DNA from: a virus
IMG/VR virus record: IMGVR_UViG_3300010316_000005
Span: 1-64,000 of that record
DNA length: 64,000 nt
Reading direction: 5' to 3' (one strand)
The notes under the pieces were generated by a model that made no database searches, was not told the DNA's origin, and worked only from the letters and a program-made list of their open reading frames with translations. A program made the translations under genes and the position numbers. Positions within the stretch are counted from its first letter, which is position 1; every line of letters starts with the position of its first letter. Positions 2,733 to 46,553 of the stretch are shown here, piece after piece.

Positions 2733-3620
2733 TTATTTTCTACAATTTATTCCATGCCATCTGCTATAGTTGCCAGGTGATATATTTTGTTTCCCACAAT
2801 TTTCACAACACTTAAAGTTAACAGTTTTCCATTCATCACTATTTTGAGTTTCTGATAATTTTCTTGAAGCTTCTTTACCTTTGGTAAGTTTCCATTCTTT
2901 GGATTGTTTAGTGATTGACATTGATTTATATGCCTCTAGACCCACGGTTTCTAACCAAATTGGATTTGACTTTGTAGTAAGTTCCTTTTCTTTAGCAGCT
3001 TTACCTATCGTAGACTTCCATCCCAGGTCATTCTTCTTCTCAAGATCTTTCCGAACTTTTTCCTTTCCTACAGTGGCTTTCCACACAGGATCGTTTTGTA
3101 TTTCTGAAGATTGTTTTGCAACATATTTTCCTGTTGTTTCTTTCCATTCTTTACTAAGCTTTGTTTCTGAAATCTTTTTTTTGTGGTAATCTGATTTGCT
3201 TTTACCTCTTAATGCGTTAGATATACCTTCATTTTGTTCCTTAGAATTTTTTCTTCCTCTATTTCCGATGGATATTTTTCTTTTTGTTTCTTCTGAATGT
3301 GGTCCACTATTATAGAATCGTTCGTTGTGTATAGACATATTAATATACATAGGATTTTTGTGGACATTGAAATATTCTTGAAAATATATTTCCTTTAAGA
3401 TTGCCTCTTTTCGGGTTTTGTGTTTGGTTAATATTACAGTTTTAAATGATTTTCTATTTGTTCTAATTTCTCTTTTCCATATTTTAGAATATTTGTCGGA
3501 ACCAACTGATCCATGATATCCATTTTCCAAGATGTTCGATACAGAAGTGTATCCTATGTAAAATGGTGGCATTTTGTTGCCACCATAAAAAGTTATATAT
3601 GTGCAAAAAACCATTGACAT
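2733..3620 (-). CDS. GIY-YIG homing endonuclease with repeat-rich DNA-binding region
   Basis: 295 residues. The N-terminal nuclease core has YITFY and FYIGYTS, the GIY and YIG strands, followed by a catalytic-type RTNR segment and an E in LKEIYFQEYF. After residue 100 come two NUMOD3-like motifs (SEETKRKISIGNRG, SDYHKKKISETK). About five diverged repeats of roughly 27 residues follow, with the pattern EWKxTxGKxAxxK, and then a C-terminal Cys-rich knuckle (CCENCGKQ...HGINCRK). Such repeats usually grip DNA along the minor groove. The gene opposes its neighbours and is preceded on its own strand by a late promoter. The repeat array is longer than usual. Confidence 0.85.
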   Translation of the reverse strand: MSMVFCTYITFYGGNKMPPFYIGYTSVSNILENGYHGSVGSDKYSKIWKREIRTNRKSFKTVILTKHKTRKEAILKEIYFQEYFNVHKNPMYINMSIHNERFYNSGPHSEETKRKISIGNRGRKNSKEQNEGISNALRGKSKSDYHKKKISETKLSKEWKETTGKYVAKQSSEIQNDPVWKATVGKEKVRKDLEKKNDLGWKSTIGKAAKEKELTTKSNPIWLETVGLEAYKSMSITKQSKEWKLTKGKEASRKLSETQNSDEWKTVNFKCCENCGKQNISPGNYSRWHGINCRK

Positions 3621-4927: not shown

Positions 4928-5359
4928 ATGAACTACGCAGAAAATCCAATTGAAGATTTGCACAATGCTATGGCCCACGCTGAATACGAGGGCTTTAGTA
5001 ATATTCACTATGAAACCCGAGACTGGGAGTTGTATAAATCAAGTGACCGCAAAGAAGACAAACGTATCCCTAAGACACGCAGGCCTACTACAAGAGACTT
5101 TGGTGTATACGCAATGTTCCCCCAAACGTGGGGCAGCACTGCGCTAGGACACGGCGGAATGGGCGGAGCGTCAATGACCACTGCGTACACTATTGTACTA
5201 GAATGTACAAACACCGGAGAGTTTTTGGTTTACTTTGGCGGGAGTTATTGTTACACGATCAAAGGAAAAAACGATGCTTTCCTTGAAGATTGTAAAAATA
5301 GATGTCTTGCTGGGAAGCGTAAAGCAAAAACAAAATACGGAATCGTAGAGCAGGATTAA
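4928..5359 (+). CDS. hypothetical protein with a swapped 3' end
   Basis: 143 residues, unrecognised, with a strong AAGGAG site. The middle is Gly-rich (GHGGMGGASMTTAYTIVLE) and the C-terminus contains EDCKNRCLAGKRK. A second, diverged copy of the last 40 or so residues lies 0.9 kb downstream at 6250-6384, beyond the endonuclease gene. The present 3' end may therefore have come with the endonuclease. The stop codon lies at the centre of a 22-nt palindrome and overlaps the opposing endonuclease stop. Confidence 0.75.
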   Translation: MNYAENPIEDLHNAMAHAEYEGFSNIHYETRDWELYKSSDRKEDKRIPKTRRPTTRDFGVYAMFPQTWGSTALGHGGMGGASMTTAYTIVLECTNTGEFLVYFGGSYCYTIKGKNDAFLEDCKNRCLAGKRKAKTKYGIVEQD

Positions 5360-5368
5360 TCCTGCTCT
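5347..5368. terminator. 22-nt perfect palindrome enclosing two opposed stop codons
   Basis: AGAGCAGGATTAATCCTGCTCT is a perfect inverted repeat without a loop. The TAA of the plus-strand gene (5357-5359) and the TAA of the minus-strand endonuclease (5358-5356) overlap at its centre. On the plus strand it is followed by CTCTATTTTT, so it could act as a terminator there; on the minus strand no T run follows. Confidence 0.55.
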
Positions 5369-6165
5369 CTATTTTTAATATCTTCTAACAAAGAAAGTAA
5401 CTTTTCTTTTGATCCAAGATTCCACCTTCTTGGTAACTTTATATTCTTGCTTAATGCTATTTCTTTTATTTCTTCTCTTATATAGTTGAGTTTAGAATAT
5501 GTTTTTCTTTGTATTTCGCCACCTAAAAAGTGGTGGGTCCCGTTGTCGATTCTTTTCTTGTGTGTTTTTCTTTGTATTTCACCACTTGAAAAGTTATGTT
5601 TTCCTTTAGCAGACAACTCAAATTGCGTGTTGCGTTGAACATCACTATTTAAGAAATGATGTGTTCCGTCTTCTATCCTCTTGCGTTGACTTTCAATCAT
5701 CTTTTTTCTAACATCATCTCTTTGAGACGAATGCCTTCCTTCTTTTAACATTCGCTCATTCATATCTTTTCCTAAAAACGGATGAGAGCCATTTTCAATC
5801 CTTATTTTATTGTTTTTTGATTTTTCTTCGGAGTCAAGCCAATGATGTGTTCCGTCTTGGATTCTCCTTTTTGCCAAGTCGCTGGCAGTTTTTGAATCAA
5901 TGCCTTCTGCTGATTCGGGTATTAAGTTTGCCCATTCTTTGGATTCTACGATATTCCAAAGATTACTATAATACAGTCCGGTTTCTTTGATTTCTTCTTT
6001 GTTATCTGTTTCTAAAAGTAATTCTGTGCTAATATCGTCGCCGTGTGTTTTTATGTGTCGTATCCAATGTTTACCAGACCCTTTATATTCATTTGGATCA
6101 TTTTTTGTGTAGCCGAGATATTTTAATCCAGTTTTGTTGTGTGTTTTAACATATAAATAATACAT
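5356..6165 (-). CDS. GIY-YIG homing endonuclease (SegB-like plan)
   Basis: 269 residues. The N-terminal nuclease core has MYYLYVKTH and KYLGYT, with YKGSGKHWIRHI and the catalytic-type E in KEEIKETGLYYS. The rest is four or five degenerate repeats around the motif GTHHFL or GSHPFL followed by EIQRKT, presumably for DNA binding, and a helical C-terminus. It is closely related to the gene at 45857. AAGGAG lies just upstream of the ATG, with a late promoter about 75 nt upstream. It meets the plus-strand gene at 5359 tail to tail with overlapping stops. Confidence 0.9.
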   Translation of the reverse strand: MYYLYVKTHNKTGLKYLGYTKNDPNEYKGSGKHWIRHIKTHGDDISTELLLETDNKEEIKETGLYYSNLWNIVESKEWANLIPESAEGIDSKTASDLAKRRIQDGTHHWLDSEEKSKNNKIRIENGSHPFLGKDMNERMLKEGRHSSQRDDVRKKMIESQRKRIEDGTHHFLNSDVQRNTQFELSAKGKHNFSSGEIQRKTHKKRIDNGTHHFLGGEIQRKTYSKLNYIREEIKEIALSKNIKLPRRWNLGSKEKLLSLLEDIKNREQD

Positions 6166-15640: not shown

Positions 15641-16672
15641 ATGTTTAACAATACAATACAGCGGATCGGTTTTGCGTGTAAGTACATGTACCCTGACCAA
15701 TCAATTAAGAAGCAGCTACTCGAAGAGTATCAGCGGCCTCTTAACAATCGTTCTACAACAGTTTCTTGGCTCAATCGACAGACTCGCGATGTTGCCGAAG
15801 AGCGCCTGTGGGACTTAATGCAACACAATATACAAAGTTTTGAAAACTTAGTTAGATACGTAGGATCTCTGCCACATGATTTACGAATGGTCCGCCTTGG
15901 AAGTGACGTTTTGCCTGTTTATACTCAGTCTAGTTGGAGTTATTTTTGGCGCCTTAGCGATACACAAGGGTATTGTGAACGAGCGTTCCGTCGCGTGGGT
16001 GAGATTGCACGTGAGCTTGATGTTCGCTTGTCTATGCATCCTGGCCAGTTCTGCTGTTTCGCATCTGATCGTGAAGATGTTGTCCTTCGTAGCATAGAAG
16101 AATTTGAGTACCACGTAGACGTAATACGATGGATGGGCTATGGCAAGCAATTCCAAGACTTTAAGTGTAACATTCACGTGTCAGGACGCAATGGAGTAGA
16201 GGGCGTAAAGCAAGCTTTAAAAAAAATAACACCCGAAGCGCGAAATGTTATTACTTTCGAAAATGATGAATATTCCTGCGGAGTCGATCAGTTAATTGAA
16301 CTTGCTGATCATGCTGCGTTAGTATTTGATAGCCACCATCACTTCATACATTCCGGCGAACATATGTATCCCAACGATGACCGTTATCAAAAAATATTAG
16401 AAAGTTGGAGAGGTGTTCGTCCTGCAATGCACTATTCTGCTAGCAGAGAAGAATACCTACTAGACGCAGACAAACTTCCTGTAATGGATGATTTACTAGC
16501 AGCAGGCTACAAGCGAGGGAAACTTAGAGCGCATAGTGATTATTATACCAATCACGCCCTTAGTGACCTAATATACGAGTTTTGGCAATATTCTGATATT
16601 ATGTGCGAGTCGAAGGCAAAGAACTTGTCGAGCATTCAGTTATACGAATACTTTAAACAGCAACATATGTAA
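15641..16672 (+). CDS. uvsE: UV damage endonuclease (UVDE/UvsE family)
   Basis: 343 residues. This TIM-barrel enzyme nicks DNA 5' of UV photoproducts. Signatures: RIGFACKYMYP at the N-terminus, RLSMHPGQF, FENDEYSC, VFDSHHHF and LRAHSDYYT, which together supply the metal-binding Glu/His/Asp set. Length fits the family. It appears leaderless: the -10 box is 5 nt from the ATG and there is no ribosome site. The last 20 nt overlap the opposing endonuclease gene. Confidence 0.92.
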   Translation: MFNNTIQRIGFACKYMYPDQSIKKQLLEEYQRPLNNRSTTVSWLNRQTRDVAEERLWDLMQHNIQSFENLVRYVGSLPHDLRMVRLGSDVLPVYTQSSWSYFWRLSDTQGYCERAFRRVGEIARELDVRLSMHPGQFCCFASDREDVVLRSIEEFEYHVDVIRWMGYGKQFQDFKCNIHVSGRNGVEGVKQALKKITPEARNVITFENDEYSCGVDQLIELADHAALVFDSHHHFIHSGEHMYPNDDRYQKILESWRGVRPAMHYSASREEYLLDADKLPVMDDLLAAGYKRGKLRAHSDYYTNHALSDLIYEFWQYSDIMCESKAKNLSSIQLYEYFKQQHM

Positions 16673-17333
16673 ATCTTTTATTGCCGGCGTCATCTATATA
16701 TTGTTTTCTCTTCATTCCTTCGTATTTCTTCTTTCTAGTCTCAGCAGCCCTTTTTGAAATGTCTGATCTTTTTTCTGGAGACATATCTTTTACCCTCTGT
16801 TGTGCTGCTATTTTATAAGATTCGATGGCAGCACTAGATCTCTTTTCGCCTTTTCTTGACTCAAGCAGTTCTATCTGTTGTTTTCTATAGTCTTCGTCTT
16901 GCCACCGCGTTTTCATCGACGCAGATATGCTGTTTCTTCCTGCTAAGGTCTTTGTGTCTTTGCCCCTGTTTGAATTTCCGCTCTTGATTTTATTTTCTGG
17001 TGTATGAGTTTTTCCATAAAACCCGTTGTCAGCGCCTCTATTAACGGGGGGTCGGGCACCTTCCGTAATATTAGTCAAATTACTAATGCCTATGGTTTCT
17101 ATTAAGTGTTCTTCATAATCATATGCGAGTTGCTCGTCGACAAAATATTTTATTATTTCTACTACAGGTTCTAGTTCTTGCTTGTGTAGTTCTTTGATAA
17201 GACTGTCTTTATAATAGTTATTATTGCCATCCGTGAACTGGTTATGGGTATGTGCCCTGTTACCAGTTCCTTTGCCTATATAAAAGACAGTGTTCGAACG
17301 AGGGTCTATAAGTTGGTATACGTAGTATTTCAT
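16653..17333 (-). CDS. GIY-YIG homing endonuclease
   Basis: 226 residues. The N-terminal core reads YYVYQLID, FYIGKGTGNRAHTH, a helix with EEHLIETIG, then NITEGARPPVNRG. A NUMOD3-type segment (NGFYGKTHTPENKIKSGNS) and a basic helical tail follow. Its 3' end overlaps uvsE by 20 nt tail to tail, and its start faces the promoter at 17355. No convincing late promoter or ribosome site was found upstream of its ATG. Confidence 0.9.
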   Translation of the reverse strand: MKYYVYQLIDPRSNTVFYIGKGTGNRAHTHNQFTDGNNNYYKDSLIKELHKQELEPVVEIIKYFVDEQLAYDYEEHLIETIGISNLTNITEGARPPVNRGADNGFYGKTHTPENKIKSGNSNRGKDTKTLAGRNSISASMKTRWQDEDYRKQQIELLESRKGEKRSSAAIESYKIAAQQRVKDMSPEKRSDISKRAAETRKKKYEGMKRKQYIDDAGNKRFTYVAV

Positions 17334-35873: not shown

Positions 35874-36234
35874 TATATTTAAAGATTCAAAGGACTTCAT
35901 GGTGGCCATTGATCAGCACGAACCTAACCAAGCACAATTTGACTTGTATGTTAAACTAATCGACGAAGAACATAGCGAACTACATGACGCAATTGAAGCA
36001 GATGATCGGGTGGAGCAGCTCGACGCTCTTGTTGACATCTTAGTTGTAACTGCCGGAGCAATCAACTCAATGGGTGCAGATGGCGAAGGCGCGTGGAACG
36101 AAGTGATGCGCACTAACTTTGCTAAGGTCGATCCAGAAACAGGCAAGGTTCGCAGACGCGAGGACGGAAAAGTTTTGAAAGGGCCTAATTGGGTTCCGCC
36201 TAATTTAGAGCCTTTCTTGTCTAAATTAAAGTAA
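35866..36234 (+). CDS. MazG-like nucleotide pyrophosphohydrolase
   Basis: 122 residues. LIDEEHSELHDAI and LDALVDILVVTAGAI give the paired E-x-x-E and D-x-x-D helices of the all-alpha NTP pyrophosphohydrolases; a conserved KVDPETGKVRRREDGKVLK follows. Such enzymes hydrolyse (d)NTPs or ppGpp. A diverged copy of the last 26 or so residues sits beyond the adjacent endonuclease at 36975-37043, so the present 3' end appears to be a replacement. Confidence 0.85.
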   Translation: MTNIFKDSKDFMVAIDQHEPNQAQFDLYVKLIDEEHSELHDAIEADDRVEQLDALVDILVVTAGAINSMGADGEGAWNEVMRTNFAKVDPETGKVRRREDGKVLKGPNWVPPNLEPFLSKLK

Positions 36235-36886
36235 ATCTGTTTTTATACAATTTGTTAGGATTATACCTAACAGCCCAAAATAGTCCGCTGCGGTTTATCC
36301 CTAGCGGACTTATTTTTTCTTCAAAATTATGTCTATTGAACATTGTCCGTTCTCCAGTGTGCATGTCTAGTAGTACATAATCTTTAACAGGAATTGGTCG
36401 AATTTCGTTTCGACGCTTAACTCCTTCTGAAATCTTTTTAGAAACTTTTTTAGAGGTAGTATTACCGTAATTCCAGTGGCTTTTTCCAGTCATGCGATCT
36501 ATGTGTTGAGCCACTCTTTCTTTGTCATCTTTCCAGCCGTGTCCTTTCTTTGCTTTAGAAATGTTTGCCTTTGTTTCTTTTGACATTACCCAGCCAGCAT
36601 TGCCATCGCCGCCGTCTGTTTTATTATGTAATATGCCAGTACCGTTGTCTATGCGCCCATGCCATCTTATTAGGCGCCGTTCTAATGCTAACGCGCCTAC
36701 ATCTGTTAGATTAGATTCTAAGATGAAAATATTCGAAAAGTCTTTTTTTGGAAATATAGTTCTGTCTGATCTAGCCCATGCTCGTTTACCACATCCTTTA
36801 CCTATGTAATAAGGTGTTCCGTTATCTCTTATGTAAGCATAGACGTAAAAATCTTTAGGCAAGTTGTTTTTAGAGTAAATATTCAT
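36221..36886 (-). CDS. GIY-YIG homing endonuclease
   Basis: 221 residues. Core: DFYVYAYIRDNGTPYYIGKG, ERRLIRWHGRIDNGTGILHN and KTDGGDGNAGW, the usual layout of phage GIY-YIG enzymes. A NUMOD3-like motif (SKETKANISKAKKGHGW) follows, then a basic C-terminus with HNFEEKISPLGINRSGL as a likely helix-turn-helix. The 3' end overlaps the MazG-like gene by 14 nt. A late promoter and a leader related to that of the 5356 gene lie upstream. Confidence 0.92.
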   Translation of the reverse strand: MNIYSKNNLPKDFYVYAYIRDNGTPYYIGKGCGKRAWARSDRTIFPKKDFSNIFILESNLTDVGALALERRLIRWHGRIDNGTGILHNKTDGGDGNAGWVMSKETKANISKAKKGHGWKDDKERVAQHIDRMTGKSHWNYGNTTSKKVSKKISEGVKRRNEIRPIPVKDYVLLDMHTGERTMFNRHNFEEKISPLGINRSGLFWAVRYNPNKLYKNRFTLI

Positions 36887-40495: not shown

Positions 40496-40970
40496 AGCTA
40501 TACTCGCGTGTGACGATAATTGGGGGATCGGGAAGAACAATGATCTTCCTTGGCCGCACAATCCTGCTGACTTAAAATGGTTTAAAGAATCAACTGATGG
40601 CGGAGTTGTGGTTATGGGCAGGAACACTTGGGATAGCTTGCCTAAGCAGCCGTTGCCCAACAGACGCAATGTTATATTGTCATCGTCGATAGGCAAAATA
40701 CGATCACCATTTATAGAAGTTATTAAACCCGACATCTTTGGCTCTAGAATAAATGTACTCGAGCAGGAAGATGCACCAGTTTGGTTTATTGGCGGAGCAC
40801 ATCTTATTAATAGTTATCTTAGAATCATAGATGAAATCTGGCTCAGTCGAATTGCTGGCAACTATAACTGTGATGTTTTTCTGCCCCGTACGGCAATTGA
40901 GCTTGCCTACGAGTTACAGAGTAGCGAAAGCAATAACGGAGTTCATATAGAAAAATGGGTAAAAGTATAA
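40488..40970 (+). CDS. frd: dihydrofolate reductase
   Basis: 160 residues. MIRAILACDDNWGIGKNNDL, WPHNPADLKWFKESTDG, VVMGRNTWDSLP and WFIGGAHLIN give the DHFR order from the substrate loop to the NADPH-binding Gly pair. It regenerates tetrahydrofolate for the adjacent thymidylate synthase, as in the T4 frd-td pair. Confidence 0.92.
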   Translation: MIRAILACDDNWGIGKNNDLPWPHNPADLKWFKESTDGGVVVMGRNTWDSLPKQPLPNRRNVILSSSIGKIRSPFIEVIKPDIFGSRINVLEQEDAPVWFIGGAHLINSYLRIIDEIWLSRIAGNYNCDVFLPRTAIELAYELQSSESNNGVHIEKWVKV

Positions 40971-40983
40971 AAAAAGGAATAAA

Positions 40984-41850
40984 ATGAAAGAATATTTAGA
41001 CGCACTAGAATTTATATTAACTAACGGTAAAGACCGTGGCGACAGAACAGGAACCGGTACACGCGGAGTATTTGGATATCAAATGCGTTTCAACTTGCGT
41101 AAAGAATTCCCAGCAGTAACTACAAAGAAGCTAGCGTGGAAGTCAGTAGTCGGAGAGCTACTTTGGATGTTAGAAGGCAGCTCAGACGAGCGCAGGCTTG
41201 CAGAGATTACATTCGAAAAGCCACGTGAAGAATTAATCGGCAAGAATACCATTTGGACTGCTAATGCCGACAAGCAAGCCAAGGACCTTGGTTATGTTAA
41301 TACCGACACCGAAAAAGATCTTGGTCCTGTTTACGGACATCAATGGCGTAGTTGGGATGCACAACTTGGCTTTGTAGATCAAATTGCAGAAGTACTGGAT
41401 CAAATGTATTACGATCCGAACAGTCGCAGACATATTGTTAGTGCGTGGAACCCTGATAAAGTGGGCGTAATGGCATTGCCGCCTTGTCATGCAATGTTTC
41501 AATTTCACATACAAGACGGTGAACTAAGTTGTCAACTGTATCAAAGGTCAGTTGATGCACCACTTGGTTTGCCATTTAATATTGCTAGTTACAGTTTGTT
41601 AACACATATGTTTGCCCAATTACTCGGGTTAAAGGTTGGTGAATTTATCCATACCTCTGGCGATTTACACATCTATCAGAATCAAATAGAAAGAGTAAAA
41701 GAACAGCTTACAAGAGAACCTCTTCCAGGGCCGACGTTAGAAATGCCTAAATTTTCAAATTTAGACGAGTTAATAAAAACAACACCGAGTCAATATAAGT
41801 TGATAAATTATCAACATCACCCTGAAATTAAGATACCGTTTGCTGTATAG
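40984..41850 (+). CDS. td: thymidylate synthase
   Basis: 288 residues. Catalytic Cys168 in LPPCHAMFQFH; RGDRTGTGTRGVFG, LYQRSVDAPLGLPFN and THMFAQ match the family. It methylates dUMP to dTMP. The gene has no intron. The C-terminus KLINYQHHPEIKIPFAV has a diverged twin at 42703-42756 beyond the next gene, so its 3' end may have been exchanged when the endonuclease cassette arrived. Confidence 0.95.
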   Translation: MKEYLDALEFILTNGKDRGDRTGTGTRGVFGYQMRFNLRKEFPAVTTKKLAWKSVVGELLWMLEGSSDERRLAEITFEKPREELIGKNTIWTANADKQAKDLGYVNTDTEKDLGPVYGHQWRSWDAQLGFVDQIAEVLDQMYYDPNSRRHIVSAWNPDKVGVMALPPCHAMFQFHIQDGELSCQLYQRSVDAPLGLPFNIASYSLLTHMFAQLLGLKVGEFIHTSGDLHIYQNQIERVKEQLTREPLPGPTLEMPKFSNLDELIKTTPSQYKLINYQHHPEIKIPFAV

Positions 41851-41856
41851 TTTTTC

Positions 41857-41895
41857 TTGCTGTTCCTTTCAATAAGATAAAGAAAGGAACAGCAA
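41857..41895 (+). promoter_or_regulatory. hairpin covering the ribosome site of the I-TevI-like gene
   Basis: TTGCTGTTCCTTTC (41857-41870) and GAAAGGAACAGCAA (41882-41895) form a perfect 14-bp stem with an 11-nt loop. The 3' arm holds the AGGA ribosome site and the first base of the start codon, so translation from long transcripts should be blocked. The loop and stem border contain GATAAAGA, one mismatch from the GATAAATA late promoter. T4 I-TevI is controlled in a comparable way, by a hairpin over its ribosome site. Confidence 0.75.
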
Positions 41896-42704
41896 TGCAA
41901 GGAATATATTATATAGAAAATACTAAAACTCAGCGTAGATATTATGGGAGTTCATTTGATATAGTAAAAAGACTAACGCAACACCGACAAGACTTAGAAA
42001 AAGGAAAACATCATAATATACAACTACAAAGAACTTATAACAAGCATGGAAACATATTTCGTTATGTAACGTTAAAAGAGACTAATTTTAATACTCGAGA
42101 AGAACTATTAGAATATGAACAGACATTTTTAGATAAAAACATCAATGGCTATAACATGGCACCCGCAAACGGCGGCAATATCCTAGGGGCACATCCAAAT
42201 AAAGATCAAATTAGAGAAAAAATTATAAAAACTCATAGTGACACTTTGAAAAGTATGAGCATTGAAGAAAAAAAGAAAAAATTTGGTCGTCCTAAAACTA
42301 AAAATGGAAACTGGAAACAAGGAGCAACTGTTAACATTTGTCCTAACTGCAATAGTTCAATGGGGTATTATGCAAAAACTTGCGGAGAATGCAGAGACAG
42401 AACAAAAGATAATAATCCGTTTTATAGAAAGTCGCACACTGATAAAACTAAATCTATTTTAAGAGAAAAACTGTCAGGCGAAAATTCGTGGATTAAAAAC
42501 ATTGATCCTAGTGAATTGCCTTATACAAAACAATATGTAATAGAATATCCCACCGGATTCTTAAAAGAAGTATATGGCCTAAAAACTATAGCAGAAGAAT
42601 TTAATACAAGTATAGCAAATTTACACGCAACAATAAATCGTATGAGACAAGGAAAAATTCCAACAAGGGGAACTTTTAAAGGAATGAATATCTATGAAAA
42701 ATAA
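41895..42704 (+). CDS. I-TevI-like GIY-YIG homing endonuclease
   Basis: 269 residues, very like I-TevI of the T4 td intron. The nuclease core has GIYYIENT and RYYGSSFDIVKRL; LEKGKHHNIQLQRTYNKHGN mirrors the I-TevI LEKGCH...KLQRSFNKHGN; INGYNMA follows. The linker has a zinc finger (CPNCNSSMGYYAKTCGEC), a NUMOD3 motif (NPFYRKSHTDKTKSILREK), and a C-terminal helix-turn-helix (KTIAEEFNTSIANLHATI). Unlike I-TevI it is free-standing, 44 nt downstream of an intact td gene. Its stop codon touches a displaced td 3' end. Confidence 0.92.
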   Translation: MQGIYYIENTKTQRRYYGSSFDIVKRLTQHRQDLEKGKHHNIQLQRTYNKHGNIFRYVTLKETNFNTREELLEYEQTFLDKNINGYNMAPANGGNILGAHPNKDQIREKIIKTHSDTLKSMSIEEKKKKFGRPKTKNGNWKQGATVNICPNCNSSMGYYAKTCGECRDRTKDNNPFYRKSHTDKTKSILREKLSGENSWIKNIDPSELPYTKQYVIEYPTGFLKEVYGLKTIAEEFNTSIANLHATINRMRQGKIPTRGTFKGMNIYEK

Positions 42705-42756
42705 ATTAATTGGGTATATCCCAATGGATAGCATAAAGGCGCCAATGGCAGTATGA
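42703..42756 (+). pseudogene. displaced 3' end of thymidylate synthase
   Basis: The frame ending at TGA 42754-42756 reads KLIGYIPMDSIKAPMAV; td ends KLINYQHHPEIKIPFAV, 9 of 17 identical including the stop position, and IKAP-x-A-V is typical of thymidylate synthase C-termini. It begins inside the endonuclease stop codon and its TGA still overlaps the next gene start as ATGA, as an ancestral td would. An ATG at 42694 could make a 20-residue peptide, but a remnant is more likely. Confidence 0.75.
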
Positions 42757-42998
42757 CCGAGGTAGTAACAAACATCGACTATGTTGAGAAATTTGCTTAC
42801 TTGCCTACGCAGGTCTCTAGTGGCGAAAGGGTGTGGTGGGATTATTATTGGATAAAAATAGTATCCTACGATCCTTCTTTAAAAATTGCGATTGATCAGG
42901 GATACGATTACTACTTAGCTAGTAAGCACATACGACTTTCATCTCGAGATAAAGAAAAAGATGAAATGTGGAGAGCAATAACCGATGATGGGAGTTAA
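42753..42998 (+). CDS. hypothetical protein, tandem paralogue of the next gene
   Basis: 81 residues. VEKFAYLPTQVSSGERVWWD and YYWIKI correspond to TRKFAWRPIRTGSGKWVFWK and HYYRQS in the gene at 43000. Start in an ATGA overlap with the displaced td end. Unknown function. Confidence 0.6.
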   Translation: MTEVVTNIDYVEKFAYLPTQVSSGERVWWDYYWIKIVSYDPSLKIAIDQGYDYYLASKHIRLSSRDKEKDEMWRAITDDGS

Positions 42999-42999
42999 C

Positions 43000-43272
43000 A
43001 TGGGATATCGACCAGTAAGGGCGCATACAACAACGCGCAAGTTTGCCTGGAGACCAATAAGAACTGGTTCGGGAAAATGGGTATTTTGGAAACACTATTA
43101 CCGACAATCAGAATTATCAGACGGGTCAGGTACAGAATACCGAAGCTATCGATATATAAATATTACCGAAAATGAATATTTGATTTATCAAATACAAAAT
43201 TCAGAACGACCAAGGACCCCACCTGTAGATTTTTTCTTTAAATCAAGAAGAGGTCCTCGGCCTGGTTATTGA
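43000..43272 (+). CDS. hypothetical protein, tandem paralogue of the previous gene
   Basis: 90 residues from ATG 43000, with GGGAG 5 nt upstream; an earlier in-frame ATG at 42985 lies inside the previous gene. It shares the KFAW...SG...WxxxYY core with its neighbour and ends in a basic tail. It meets phoH tail to tail with no gap. Confidence 0.6.
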   Translation: MGYRPVRAHTTTRKFAWRPIRTGSGKWVFWKHYYRQSELSDGSGTEYRSYRYINITENEYLIYQIQNSERPRTPPVDFFFKSRRGPRPGY

Positions 43273-43998
43273 TTACTCGTCGCCGTAAATGTCGAGTACC
43301 TCTTTAACTGCTTCATGACGTTCAACGTCTTTTCTTTCAAAGTGAATCATTTCAATTCTCTGAGAATGTTTGTTTTCATAGTGACGTATGAAATCTACAA
43401 GACCATTATCCTTTAGTCGATCTGCTTGATACAAGTCACCTGTTACTGCCATATACGAATCATTACCTAATCGTGTTAGTAACATCTTCATTTGACTTGG
43501 TGTTGCATTTTGCATTTCGTCTGCAATAATGTATGCGTTTTTGAACGTTCTTCCTCGCATATATGATAGCGGAGCAATTTCAATAACTCCTTCTGCGATC
43601 ATACCTGTAATTTCTCTTGAGTCAAAATACTCACGTAGCACATCAAAAATCGGGCGCGTCCACGGCGCCATCTTTTCTTCAAGAGTACCCGGAAGGGCTC
43701 CTAAATCTTCGTCAACTGATACTGCTGGTCTTGTAACAATGATCTTGTCGACTAGTCCTTCTTTGAAACTTTTTACTGCTACTTGCACAGCTAATAGTGT
43801 TTTACCTGTTCCTGCTGGTCCAATTCCAAAGACTATGTCTTTACCCGGATCCAATAGATTTAACACGTAGGTTTCCTGATTTAAATTTCTTGGAAGTATT
43901 GATACTACTGTTTTCTTTTTTTGAAAAGAATTAATGTTAACTACGTTCTCTTTGTAGTTGTTACGAGGTTGCTTTCTCGAAGCTCTAGCTTTACCCAT
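43273..43998 (-). CDS. phoH: PhoH-like ATPase
   Basis: 241 residues. Walker A GPAGTGKT at 60-67 (Lys66), DKIIVTRPAVSVDEDLG, RGRTFKNAYIIADEMQNATP (Walker B region) and MAVTGDLYQAD match PhoH. The N-terminus is basic. PhoH proteins are P-loop ATPases, often fused or linked to RNA-processing factors, and common in marine phages; their role there is unsettled. AAGGAGGAC lies just upstream of the ATG. Confidence 0.9.
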   Translation of the reverse strand: MGKARASRKQPRNNYKENVVNINSFQKKKTVVSILPRNLNQETYVLNLLDPGKDIVFGIGPAGTGKTLLAVQVAVKSFKEGLVDKIIVTRPAVSVDEDLGALPGTLEEKMAPWTRPIFDVLREYFDSREITGMIAEGVIEIAPLSYMRGRTFKNAYIIADEMQNATPSQMKMLLTRLGNDSYMAVTGDLYQADRLKDNGLVDFIRHYENKHSQRIEMIHFERKDVERHEAVKEVLDIYGDE

Positions 43999-45408: not shown

Positions 45409-45860
45409 TGCATTATATTATCGGAATAATGGCAATTATAATGATAGTAGCAGGCGGCATTGGCTACTGGTATTACAACGATAGTCAAGAAAGAATCACG
45501 ACATTGATTACTAATAATGCCCAGCTTGAAAGTGGTATAGCTACTAGTGAAGAAACTATCACTACATTACAAGACAATTACGCATTAGCAAACAAAACGA
45601 TTGCCGAGTTAAACGAAGAACTAAGAAATATCAAAAGACAAAACCAACTATTAGTTGATAAGTTTTCTGATAGTGATCTTGGAGTGGCGGCAGCAGCAAG
45701 ACCAGAATTAATCAAAAGACTAATTAACAAAGGAACAGCTAATGCGTTTCGTTGCTTTGAACTTTTAAGCGGTGCAGCATTAACTGACAAAGAAAGGAAC
45801 GCAAAAAATGCAAGGGAGTTCAACAACGAATGCCCCTGGCTCTGGAAAAGCGTTAAATGA
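45408..45860 (+). CDS. inner-membrane spanin candidate (Rz-like)
   Basis: 150 residues. One N-terminal membrane anchor (IIGIMAIIMIVAGGIGYWYY), then a long periplasmic coiled coil (TTLQDNYALANKTIAELNEE) and a C-terminal globular tail with two Cys. This is i-spanin topology, and a small lipoprotein gene follows after the intervening endonuclease, as in Rz/Rz1 pairs. The spanins fuse the membranes at the last step of lysis. The assignment comes from topology and context. Confidence 0.6.
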   Translation: MHYIIGIMAIIMIVAGGIGYWYYNDSQERITTLITNNAQLESGIATSEETITTLQDNYALANKTIAELNEELRNIKRQNQLLVDKFSDSDLGVAAAARPELIKRLINKGTANAFRCFELLSGAALTDKERNAKNAREFNNECPWLWKSVK

Positions 45861-46553
45861 TATTTCTTTACATAAAAAAACATAACAAGACAGGTCTTAA
45901 ATATCTCGGAATGACTACTGCTACTGACCCTCACATTTATAAAGGATCAGGAAAACATTGGAAACGTCATATTGAAAAACATGGGTACGATGTAGAAACA
46001 GAGATACTATTAGAAACAACTTCTAAAGAAGAGCTTAAAGAAGTTGGTCTTTATTATAGTAAAAAATGGAACATTGTGAACTCAAAAGAATGGGCAAATT
46101 TAACTGAAGAAACGGGCAATGGCATGAGCTCGTCATTTTCAAAAGAAATACAACAAAAAAGAGTAAATGAAGGCTCGCATCCGTTTCTGGGAGGCAAACG
46201 GACTAGAGAGAGAAATCTTCAAATGTCTAAAGATGGATTGCATCCGTTTCTGGGAGGCAAGTACACTAAAGAAAATAACAAACGTATGATTTCTAATGGC
46301 ACACATCCTTTTCAGAATAAAACGAAAATGGAACACAATCGAAAACGAGTTAGTGAAACTCAGAGAAATAGAGTGAAAGAGGGGAAATCATAATTTTAAA
46401 GGCAAAGTACCAGTCATTGACAAAGATGGGAATTCTTTTATTATTAGCACAGAAGAGTACCATAATCAAAAAATAGGCGATATTAACTCTTGGAAGTATG
46501 TCTCTGTTAGATCTAAAGAAGCAAGAAAGAGAAAAAATGAAAACCCAAATTAA
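45857..46553 (+). pseudogene. GIY-YIG homing endonuclease with a frameshift
   Basis: The first frame gives 178 residues to TAA 46391-46393: nuclease core MIFLYIKKH, KYLGMT, YKGSGKHWKRHI and KEELKEVGLYYS, then repeats with GSHPFLGGK, closely related to the gene at 5356. From 46392 the +1 frame continues without a start as NFKGKVPVIDKDGNSFIIST and RSKEARKRK to TAA 46551-46553, a C-terminal domain usual for phage homing enzymes. One extra base near 46391 would explain it. The gene sits between two spanin candidates, in an ATGA overlap with the first. Confidence 0.75.

Follow-up and report, generated by a model that had tools for sequence, protein, structure and literature searches.

A free-standing I-TevI-like endonuclease gene between a hybrid td gene and a displaced td 3' end in a phage contig

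Results

The td gene and the adjacent ORF

The DNA stretch analyzed here (the window, 64,000 nucleotides) belongs to a virus contig of 175,736 bases, in which genes for a T4-type DNA polymerase and clamp loader are present. On the plus strand of the window, the thymidylate synthase gene td (positions 40984-41850; Pfam Thymidylat_synt, 3.9e-97) is followed after 44 nt by an intact ORF of 269 aa (41895-42704, plus strand). It encodes a free-standing GIY-YIG homing endonuclease with a nuclease domain, a zinc-finger linker, a NUMOD3-like helix and a C-terminal helix-turn-helix. A previous sequence-only reading of this locus had described an I-TevI relative standing alone 44 nt behind a td gene devoid of an intron. 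Both statements were confirmed, as td is uninterrupted and Rfam searches for an intron gave no match, either at E<=1 in positions 40900-43300 or at the gathering threshold in the whole window. The ORF is not part of a group I intron, td being unbroken and no room being left for a ribozyme. It lies outside introns and inteins, adjoins its presumed target gene and shows a sporadic distribution. That the ORF follows td was correctly seen; the old end of td behind the ORF, however, had been missed.

The protein matched the Pfam GIY-YIG model above its cut-off (4.4e-6), and its closest solved structures are the catalytic domain (4e-17) and the DNA-binding domain (1.3e-8) of I-TevI, whose DNA-binding structure 1i3j was matched by residues 129-203. 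An AF2 model led to 1ln0 (Foldseek, 7e-8), i.e. to the GIY-YIG fold. According to the alignment with I-TevI, the Arg/Glu/Asn active-site residues (R27, E75 and N90 in I-TevI) and the four zinc-finger cysteines are kept, and the order of zinc finger, NUMOD3 helix and helix-turn-helix is common to this protein and the T4 enzyme. A C-terminal beta-beta-helix-helix (helix-turn-helix) unit was predicted with a pLDDT of about 85. Among solved structures, the C-terminal half matched only the I-TevI DNA-binding domain by sequence and, weakly, I-HmuI by fold. The Pfam I-TevI_ZnF model remained below its cut-off (18.3 vs 27 bits), NUMOD3 was called by Pfam in relatives but not in the window protein, and the C-terminal half is longer than that of T4 I-TevI and diverged beyond residue about 196.

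The displaced td tail

Immediately downstream, positions 42703-42756 (plus strand) contain a td 3' end (KLIGYIPMDSIKAPMAV-stop) that is not used by td. It reads K-L-I-G-Y-I-P-M-D-S-I-K-A-P-M-A-V-stop, which is the usual td C-terminus of relatives lacking the homing endonuclease gene (HEG), and it matches the td ends of the genomes L015, L018 and L026. The td gene upstream of the ORF has another ending (..NYQHHPEIKIPFAV). Because the normal C-terminus survives behind the ORF and the upstream td ends differently, an element has entered td and supplied another td end, the 3' third of the present gene being part of the mobile unit. Thus, a foreign gene end stands in frame and the displaced native end lies behind the endonuclease gene. 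The chance of finding such a tail is about 0.0005 per 120-nt segment, and it follows the HEG in at least five genomes (the window, L006, L093, L094 and L180), with traces in L099 (within the last codons of the HEG itself), L160 and L009.

At the right junction, the tetranucleotide ATAA (42701-42704, plus strand) is a possible microhomology between the HEG end and the old td gene; it also occurs at the L009 and L006 junctions. The position of this junction varies by lineage (Y-K-L-I in the window, Y-N-P in L006, the last codons in L099). In every lineage with a visible right junction, the HEG sits in the td tail. The next ORF (42753-42998) starts with an ATG at 42753 which overlaps the stop codon of the displaced tail (ATGA), and td of HEG-less relatives likewise overlaps the next gene. 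The old tail may have been kept intact as the start region of that gene.

Relatives and phylogeny

A search with the C-terminal half of the protein revealed twelve or so strong relatives, all of them located directly after td. Most are of the GIY-YIG type, while L005, L093, L099 and L160 possess an HNH head, confirmed by Pfam in L093 and L099. The DNA-binding halves of L004 and L005 are 60-64% identical to that of the window protein over about 107 aa. Since the HNH head is joined to the same NUMOD3/helix-turn-helix half, the nuclease has been exchanged whereas the DNA-binding half and its place were kept. Many of the relatives' ORFs are intact and retain the catalytic residues. For cellular relatives, one scan of genome contigs gave only weak GIY-YIG matches. 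A relative in L182 (49% identical to that of L094) is convergent to td, not co-directional, with a strong hairpin between the genes.

Among annotated phages, I-TevI resides in the td intron of T4, Melville, Aes508 and phiP4-3. Free-standing I-TevI relatives beside an intron-less td gene were found in the Straboviridae phages phiR1-RT, KP182, EcS1, Meroveus, AbTZA1 and Gravdalen and in the T5-like phages Gostya9 and SP01; the arrangement is therefore not unique to the window. Escherichia phage LH2 (L120) combines the two: its td intron contains I-TevI, and a free-standing I-TevI relative lies immediately behind td in convergent orientation. When 24 proteins were placed in a tree, that of the window grouped with td-adjacent free-standing enzymes (8 rows, support 99/98). 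T4 I-TevI fell outside this clade, and the window protein is not its sister; the deeper order was left unsettled by this tree. In a tree built from td residues 1-180, 15 changes were required to explain the HEG label of 17 rows, compared to a mean of 16.3 after shuffling. As the label is scattered like the shuffled ones, the HEG and the 3' end of td move independently of the remainder of the gene. The HEGs of the window and L003 are 86% identical.

The breakpoint in td

By alignment with T4, the equivalent of the td intron insertion site (LG|LPFN) is located at 41568-41569 (plus strand). On the T4 gene, I-TevI cleaves 23/25 nt before the intron site (PMC2988022). The equivalent of its cleavage motif CNNNG, CAACG in T4, is CAAAG (41542-41546, plus strand; alignment with the T4 exon 1 end), and the 23/25 nt rule places the putative cut within it at 41543-41545. 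Compared to other hairpin-bearing genomes, the window was about 73-75% identical over the first two thirds of td and about 84-94% identical from the td 3' third through the HEG. By contrast, its identity to HEG-less relatives declines from about 41547 onward. In four comparisons that share sequences with one another, the Max-chi method set the breakpoint of the window at 41545-41548 (0/2000 permutations in each). The same position emerged from L009, which carries the HEG, and the HEG-less L017, sisters on the td N-terminal tree (99/99): they are nearly identical over the equivalent of 41416-41546 and diverge abruptly from 41547, with a log-likelihood gain for a breakpoint of 33.5 at 41550. A similar break was seen between the HNH carrier L099 and L128. 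For the window and L009 alone, the breakpoint was poorly placed (support 41290-41739), and for L009 and L006 the support covered 41570-41679. The breakpoint stretch is strongly conserved in td and ordinary recombination also tends to cross over there; moreover, CNNNG at this position is partly forced by the encoded protein.

Recoding at the intron-site equivalent

The residues F-LG-V at the intron-site equivalent were found in 136 of 149 distinct HEG-less td proteins and in none of the 14 td proteins beside GIY-YIG HEGs (p 3e-13), which make up about ten independent lineages; p-values of such associations overstate independence because the td alleles with a HEG are unevenly distributed over the phylogeny. 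When every td column was scanned without preselection, the strongest associations were at 197, 194, 285 (tail) and 193; of the tail columns, 285 and 287 rank among those altered most when a HEG is present. At the DNA level, td genes beside GIY-YIG HEGs deviate from the HEG-less consensus from -24 to +15 relative to this site, i.e. over about 39 bp, with a weak deviation at -48..-24 (p 0.017) and none at +15..+40. The recoded stretch is about as long as the I-TevI site, which comprises 38 bp (PMC2988022). In 10 of 12 comparisons, the nearest HEG-less td retained F-LG-V; the reverse was never seen. In terms of sequence, the target is thus altered in the carriers, which hold a recoded and presumably resistant td. 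HNH-type carriers kept V after LG (4/4) and deviated less, and may therefore cut differently or tolerate their own site. Two HEG-less genomes, L075 and L235, have a recoded target together with an IKIPFAV-type tail; they are possibly sites of HEG loss.

An operator-like copy in the leader

T4 I-TevI is autorepressed by way of an upstream sequence that is similar to its homing site (PMC2988022). A 23-nt matrix was derived from HEG-less td (positions -8..+15) and run on the leaders of carriers. In the window, it detected a target-like sequence upstream of the ORF (41854-41876, plus strand; 15/23 to the consensus TTTTAGGTGTTCCATTTAACATT, score 14.0), which overlaps the 5' arm of the leader hairpin and could serve as an operator. 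None of the 149 HEG-less post-td control segments scored as high (random-segment p 0.0015). High-scoring copies were present in most carrier leaders, GIY-YIG and HNH alike (L005 20/23, L004 18/23, L099 and L094 17/23), and nearly all of them outscored all 149 controls (random-segment p 0.0002 to 0.005); the 23-nt core and the wider segment were chosen after the result of an earlier matrix was known, which (30 nt, strict pseudocount, segment from the td stop) had missed copies overlapping the stop codon. Applied in the same way, the T4 homing core revealed a copy ahead of I-TevI that matches at 14/23. With the 23-nt matrix, no match was found in the L104 leader and only a weak one in that of L182. 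As the C-terminal half is all that the GIY-YIG and HNH types have in common, it is probably this half that reads the target-like sequence.

The leader hairpin and the late-promoter motif

The leader forms a perfect 14-bp hairpin (41857-41895, plus strand; arms 41857-41870 and 41882-41895), and no perfect inverted repeat elsewhere in the window is as long. It covers the Shine-Dalgarno sequence AAAGGAA (41883-41889, inside the 3' arm) and the A of the start codon, so that the ribosome site is sequestered in the predicted fold. The hairpin had already been noted in the sequence-only reading; its arms were verified and it outfolded 200/200 shuffled sequences (z -5.7; leader alone, z -5.0). At its loop, GATAAAGA (41876-41883, plus strand) differs by one mismatch from the late-promoter-like motif GATAAATA, which precedes 12 genes in the whole contig G000 (0.8 expected); the looser motif [N]ATAAATA precedes 26 (2.1 expected). 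As a promoter motif, GATAAAGA was rejected since, with 4 occurrences in the window against 3.5 expected, it shows no enrichment. For the exact T4 late promoter TATAAATA, enrichment in the window is marginal, GATAAATA being the better consensus. The promoter copy in the window is probably weak or broken, and the start predicted from it would, owing to poor spacing, delete the Shine-Dalgarno sequence. Because of the mismatch and the spacing, this allele may be weakly expressed or silent.

In the genomes L006-L009, the hairpin arms are identical to those of the window while the loops differ in length. L009 contains an exact GATAAATA in the loop, and a start 6 nt downstream keeps the Shine-Dalgarno sequence but drops the 5' arm. 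Unrelated arms surround the same kind of motif in L095, L096 and L180, and for L095 and L096 it is predicted that late mRNA starting from the loop motif would retain the Shine-Dalgarno sequence without the 5' arm. The Shine-Dalgarno sequence is covered by arms in L009, L006, L095 and L096, the arm sequences being unrelated. The hairpin of L097 extends over the start codon, with the motif immediately in front of it. Leader hairpins significant against shuffled sequences were absent in L004, L094, L097 (p 0.09), L180 (p 0.47), L102, L093 and L005; in L004 and L094, a promoter-like motif is located at the td stop codon without a comparable hairpin. The assumption of a T4-like control by hairpin and late promoter is favored by a layout that recurs in several relatives with unrelated arms and the motif in the loop, but in the window itself the near-promoter noted at the loop proved to be an imperfect, badly spaced copy. 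In L096 (3914-4776), the promoter-in-hairpin leader is intact and the HEG frame is broken in the nuclease half. The HEG of L006 (4001-5300; also L007 and L008) is eroded by frameshifts and an internal deletion, and the hairpin arms are those of the window.

Discussion

Homology, a hybrid td gene, a displaced tail, a breakpoint, a target-site association, an operator-like match and a hairpin were read from the sequence. From these features we infer DNA binding, cleavage, resistance, repair route and regulation as follows. It is likely that a free-standing endonuclease of the I-TevI family homes into td and brings along a recoded, presumably resistant td 3' third. The C-terminal half would bind td across the T4 intron site (LG|xPFNI) and the GIY-YIG head would cut about 21-25 bp upstream, at CNNNG. 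A broken recipient td gene would then be repaired from the HEG-bearing phage, gaining, rightward from the cut, the donor td 3' third with the recoded target, the leader and the endonuclease gene. Because there is little homology beyond the HEG, the right end would join illegitimately inside the recipient td tail, which would be left as a fossil. The product would be a whole hybrid td gene, probably resistant, together with the HEG. The operator-like target copy in the leader may mediate autorepression, the hairpin would mask the ribosome site when the mRNA is a read-through product, and the putative late promoter inside the hairpin of several relatives may provide a late mRNA without the 5' arm.

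It is conceivable that td is cut elsewhere, for instance at the insertion point in the td tail, and that the breakpoint at 41547 merely reflects crossing-over in conserved sequence. The entry of the HEG into the td tail wherever the right junction is seen and the strong changes in columns 285 and 287 would agree with this. However, the donor end would bring new tail columns in any case, the deviation is equally strong at the intron-site equivalent, where it is confined to about 39 bp, the leaders hold operator-like copies of just this site, and the right junctions vary among lineages, unlike a fixed cut site. We therefore regard a cut elsewhere as improbable. Slightly less probable still is that homologous recombination shuffles td 3' ends while the endonuclease gene rides along or is inactive. 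The eroded HEGs of L006 and L096 and the imperfect promoter copy of the window fit such a passenger, whereas the intact ORFs of the window and many relatives with their kept catalytic residues and the scattered HEG label on the td N-terminal tree do not; the exchange for an HNH head, with the DNA-binding half and its place preserved, fits selection for homing to this site. That the endonuclease is encoded in a group I intron of td is hardly credible. The ORF is indeed flanked on both sides by td sequence, but Rfam gave no match and the 44 + about 0 nt outside the ORF are too little for a ribozyme core. Splicing is not needed either, because both flanks encode a complete, alternative td C-terminus.

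As to the hairpin, it might not act in translation at all but be a DNA operator of two inverted target copies or a 3' stabilizer of the td mRNA. Its 5' arm resembles the td target and its arms are unchanged beside the eroded HEG of L006. Even so, we consider these roles rather unlikely, since unrelated arms cover the Shine-Dalgarno sequence in L009, L006, L095 and L096, the promoter motif in the loop of L009, L095 and L096 would give a late mRNA that keeps this sequence and loses the 5' arm, and no U-tract follows the stem.

Besides its domains and residues, the window unit shares with T4 I-TevI the same td target region, as judged by the footprint, an operator-like target copy upstream and a hairpin over the ribosome site, joined in some of the window's relatives by a late-promoter motif (for T4, PMC2988022). 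Unlike T4 I-TevI, the window enzyme is not located in an intron; it brings a substitute td 3' end, and the former tail is left over. The seg (GIY-YIG) and mob endonucleases of T-even phages are likewise intergenic, adjoin their inferred target gene and have a cut site remote from the gene, and hairpins occur with SegB and Aeh1 MobE, hairpin regulation being known for some free-standing enzymes (PMC2988022). The seg targets given in the available text of that article are uvsX, 56, 32, uvsW and others, none of them td at the intron site, and this text describes no displaced target-gene end for seg or mob enzymes. In the collaborative homing of F-CphI/psbA and mobE/nrdB, a free-standing enzyme is also aimed at an intron insertion site (PMC2988022 and PMC10448857, the latter citing Zeng 2009 and Bonocora 2009). 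By contrast, the window enzyme is of the same family as the intron's own I-TevI and brings a recoded gene end. The named Straboviridae phages have their free-standing I-TevI relatives adjacent to td as in the window, but convergent to it and with a short I-TevI-type C-terminus. In the T5-like phage SP01, no displaced td tail was found.

Mobile ORFs with C-terminal duplication have been described in fungal mitochondria (Allomyces atp6; Glomus atp6, atp9, cox2 and nad3; Rhizopus atp9; Mortierella cox2; PMC3630166). They resemble the td unit in possessing an in-frame foreign gene end, an endonuclease ORF and a displaced native C-terminus behind it. However, they are mitochondrial and, in Glomus, mostly of the LAGLIDADG family, while here an I-TevI-type enzyme is associated with phage td, and the td units in addition have exchanged nucleases and are linked to an intron site. 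Because genome type and enzyme family differ, the window unit was not assigned to the fungal mobile ORFs. By analogy, these may be seen as the precedent for its layout (PMC3630166) and collaborative homing as the precedent for its targeting (PMC2988022 and PMC10448857). In a literature search confined to papers outside subscription, neither free-standing endonucleases that target td nor a phage td gene with a displaced end were found to be described.

I-TevI is the textbook intron-homing enzyme, and it is still debated how endonucleases and introns joined. In many phages, members of this enzyme family occur outside any intron, apparently aimed at the identical td site and with an operator and hairpin arranged in a similar way. 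The suggestion that the locus represents an alternative, free-standing state of the td/I-TevI partnership gained from the breakpoint, the recoding and the operator-like leader, which point to the T4 intron site, but its direction cannot be read from the tree. In a wider view, to which we give about even chances, the units would form a widespread family of natural cut-and-rescue cassettes in phages. One DNA-binding module would be locked onto the td intron site and its nuclease head swapped (GIY-YIG/HNH), and the cassettes would spread in that an essential active-site stretch of td is destroyed while the recoded td end is supplied. The intron partnership of td and I-TevI would have arisen from such free-standing cassettes, or these would have branched off from it. 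The findings also suggest that a phage homing endonuclease can carry the recoded end of the gene it cuts, which is the logic of the fungal mitochondrial mobile ORFs and of engineered cleave-and-rescue drives. Natural pairs, i.e. td with and without HEG and the GIY-YIG and HNH versions, allow direct tests of collaborative homing.

Apart from the td locus, the window contains further homing-endonuclease-like ORFs at 16653-17333, 36221-36886, 2733-3620 and 5356-6165 (all minus strand) and at 45857-46393 (plus strand). Pfam matches among these five ORFs were LEM-3-like GIY-YIG (6.8e-9), NUMOD3 (2.4e-7) and a weak NUMOD3, and two of them, without a convincing Pfam match, look related to each other.
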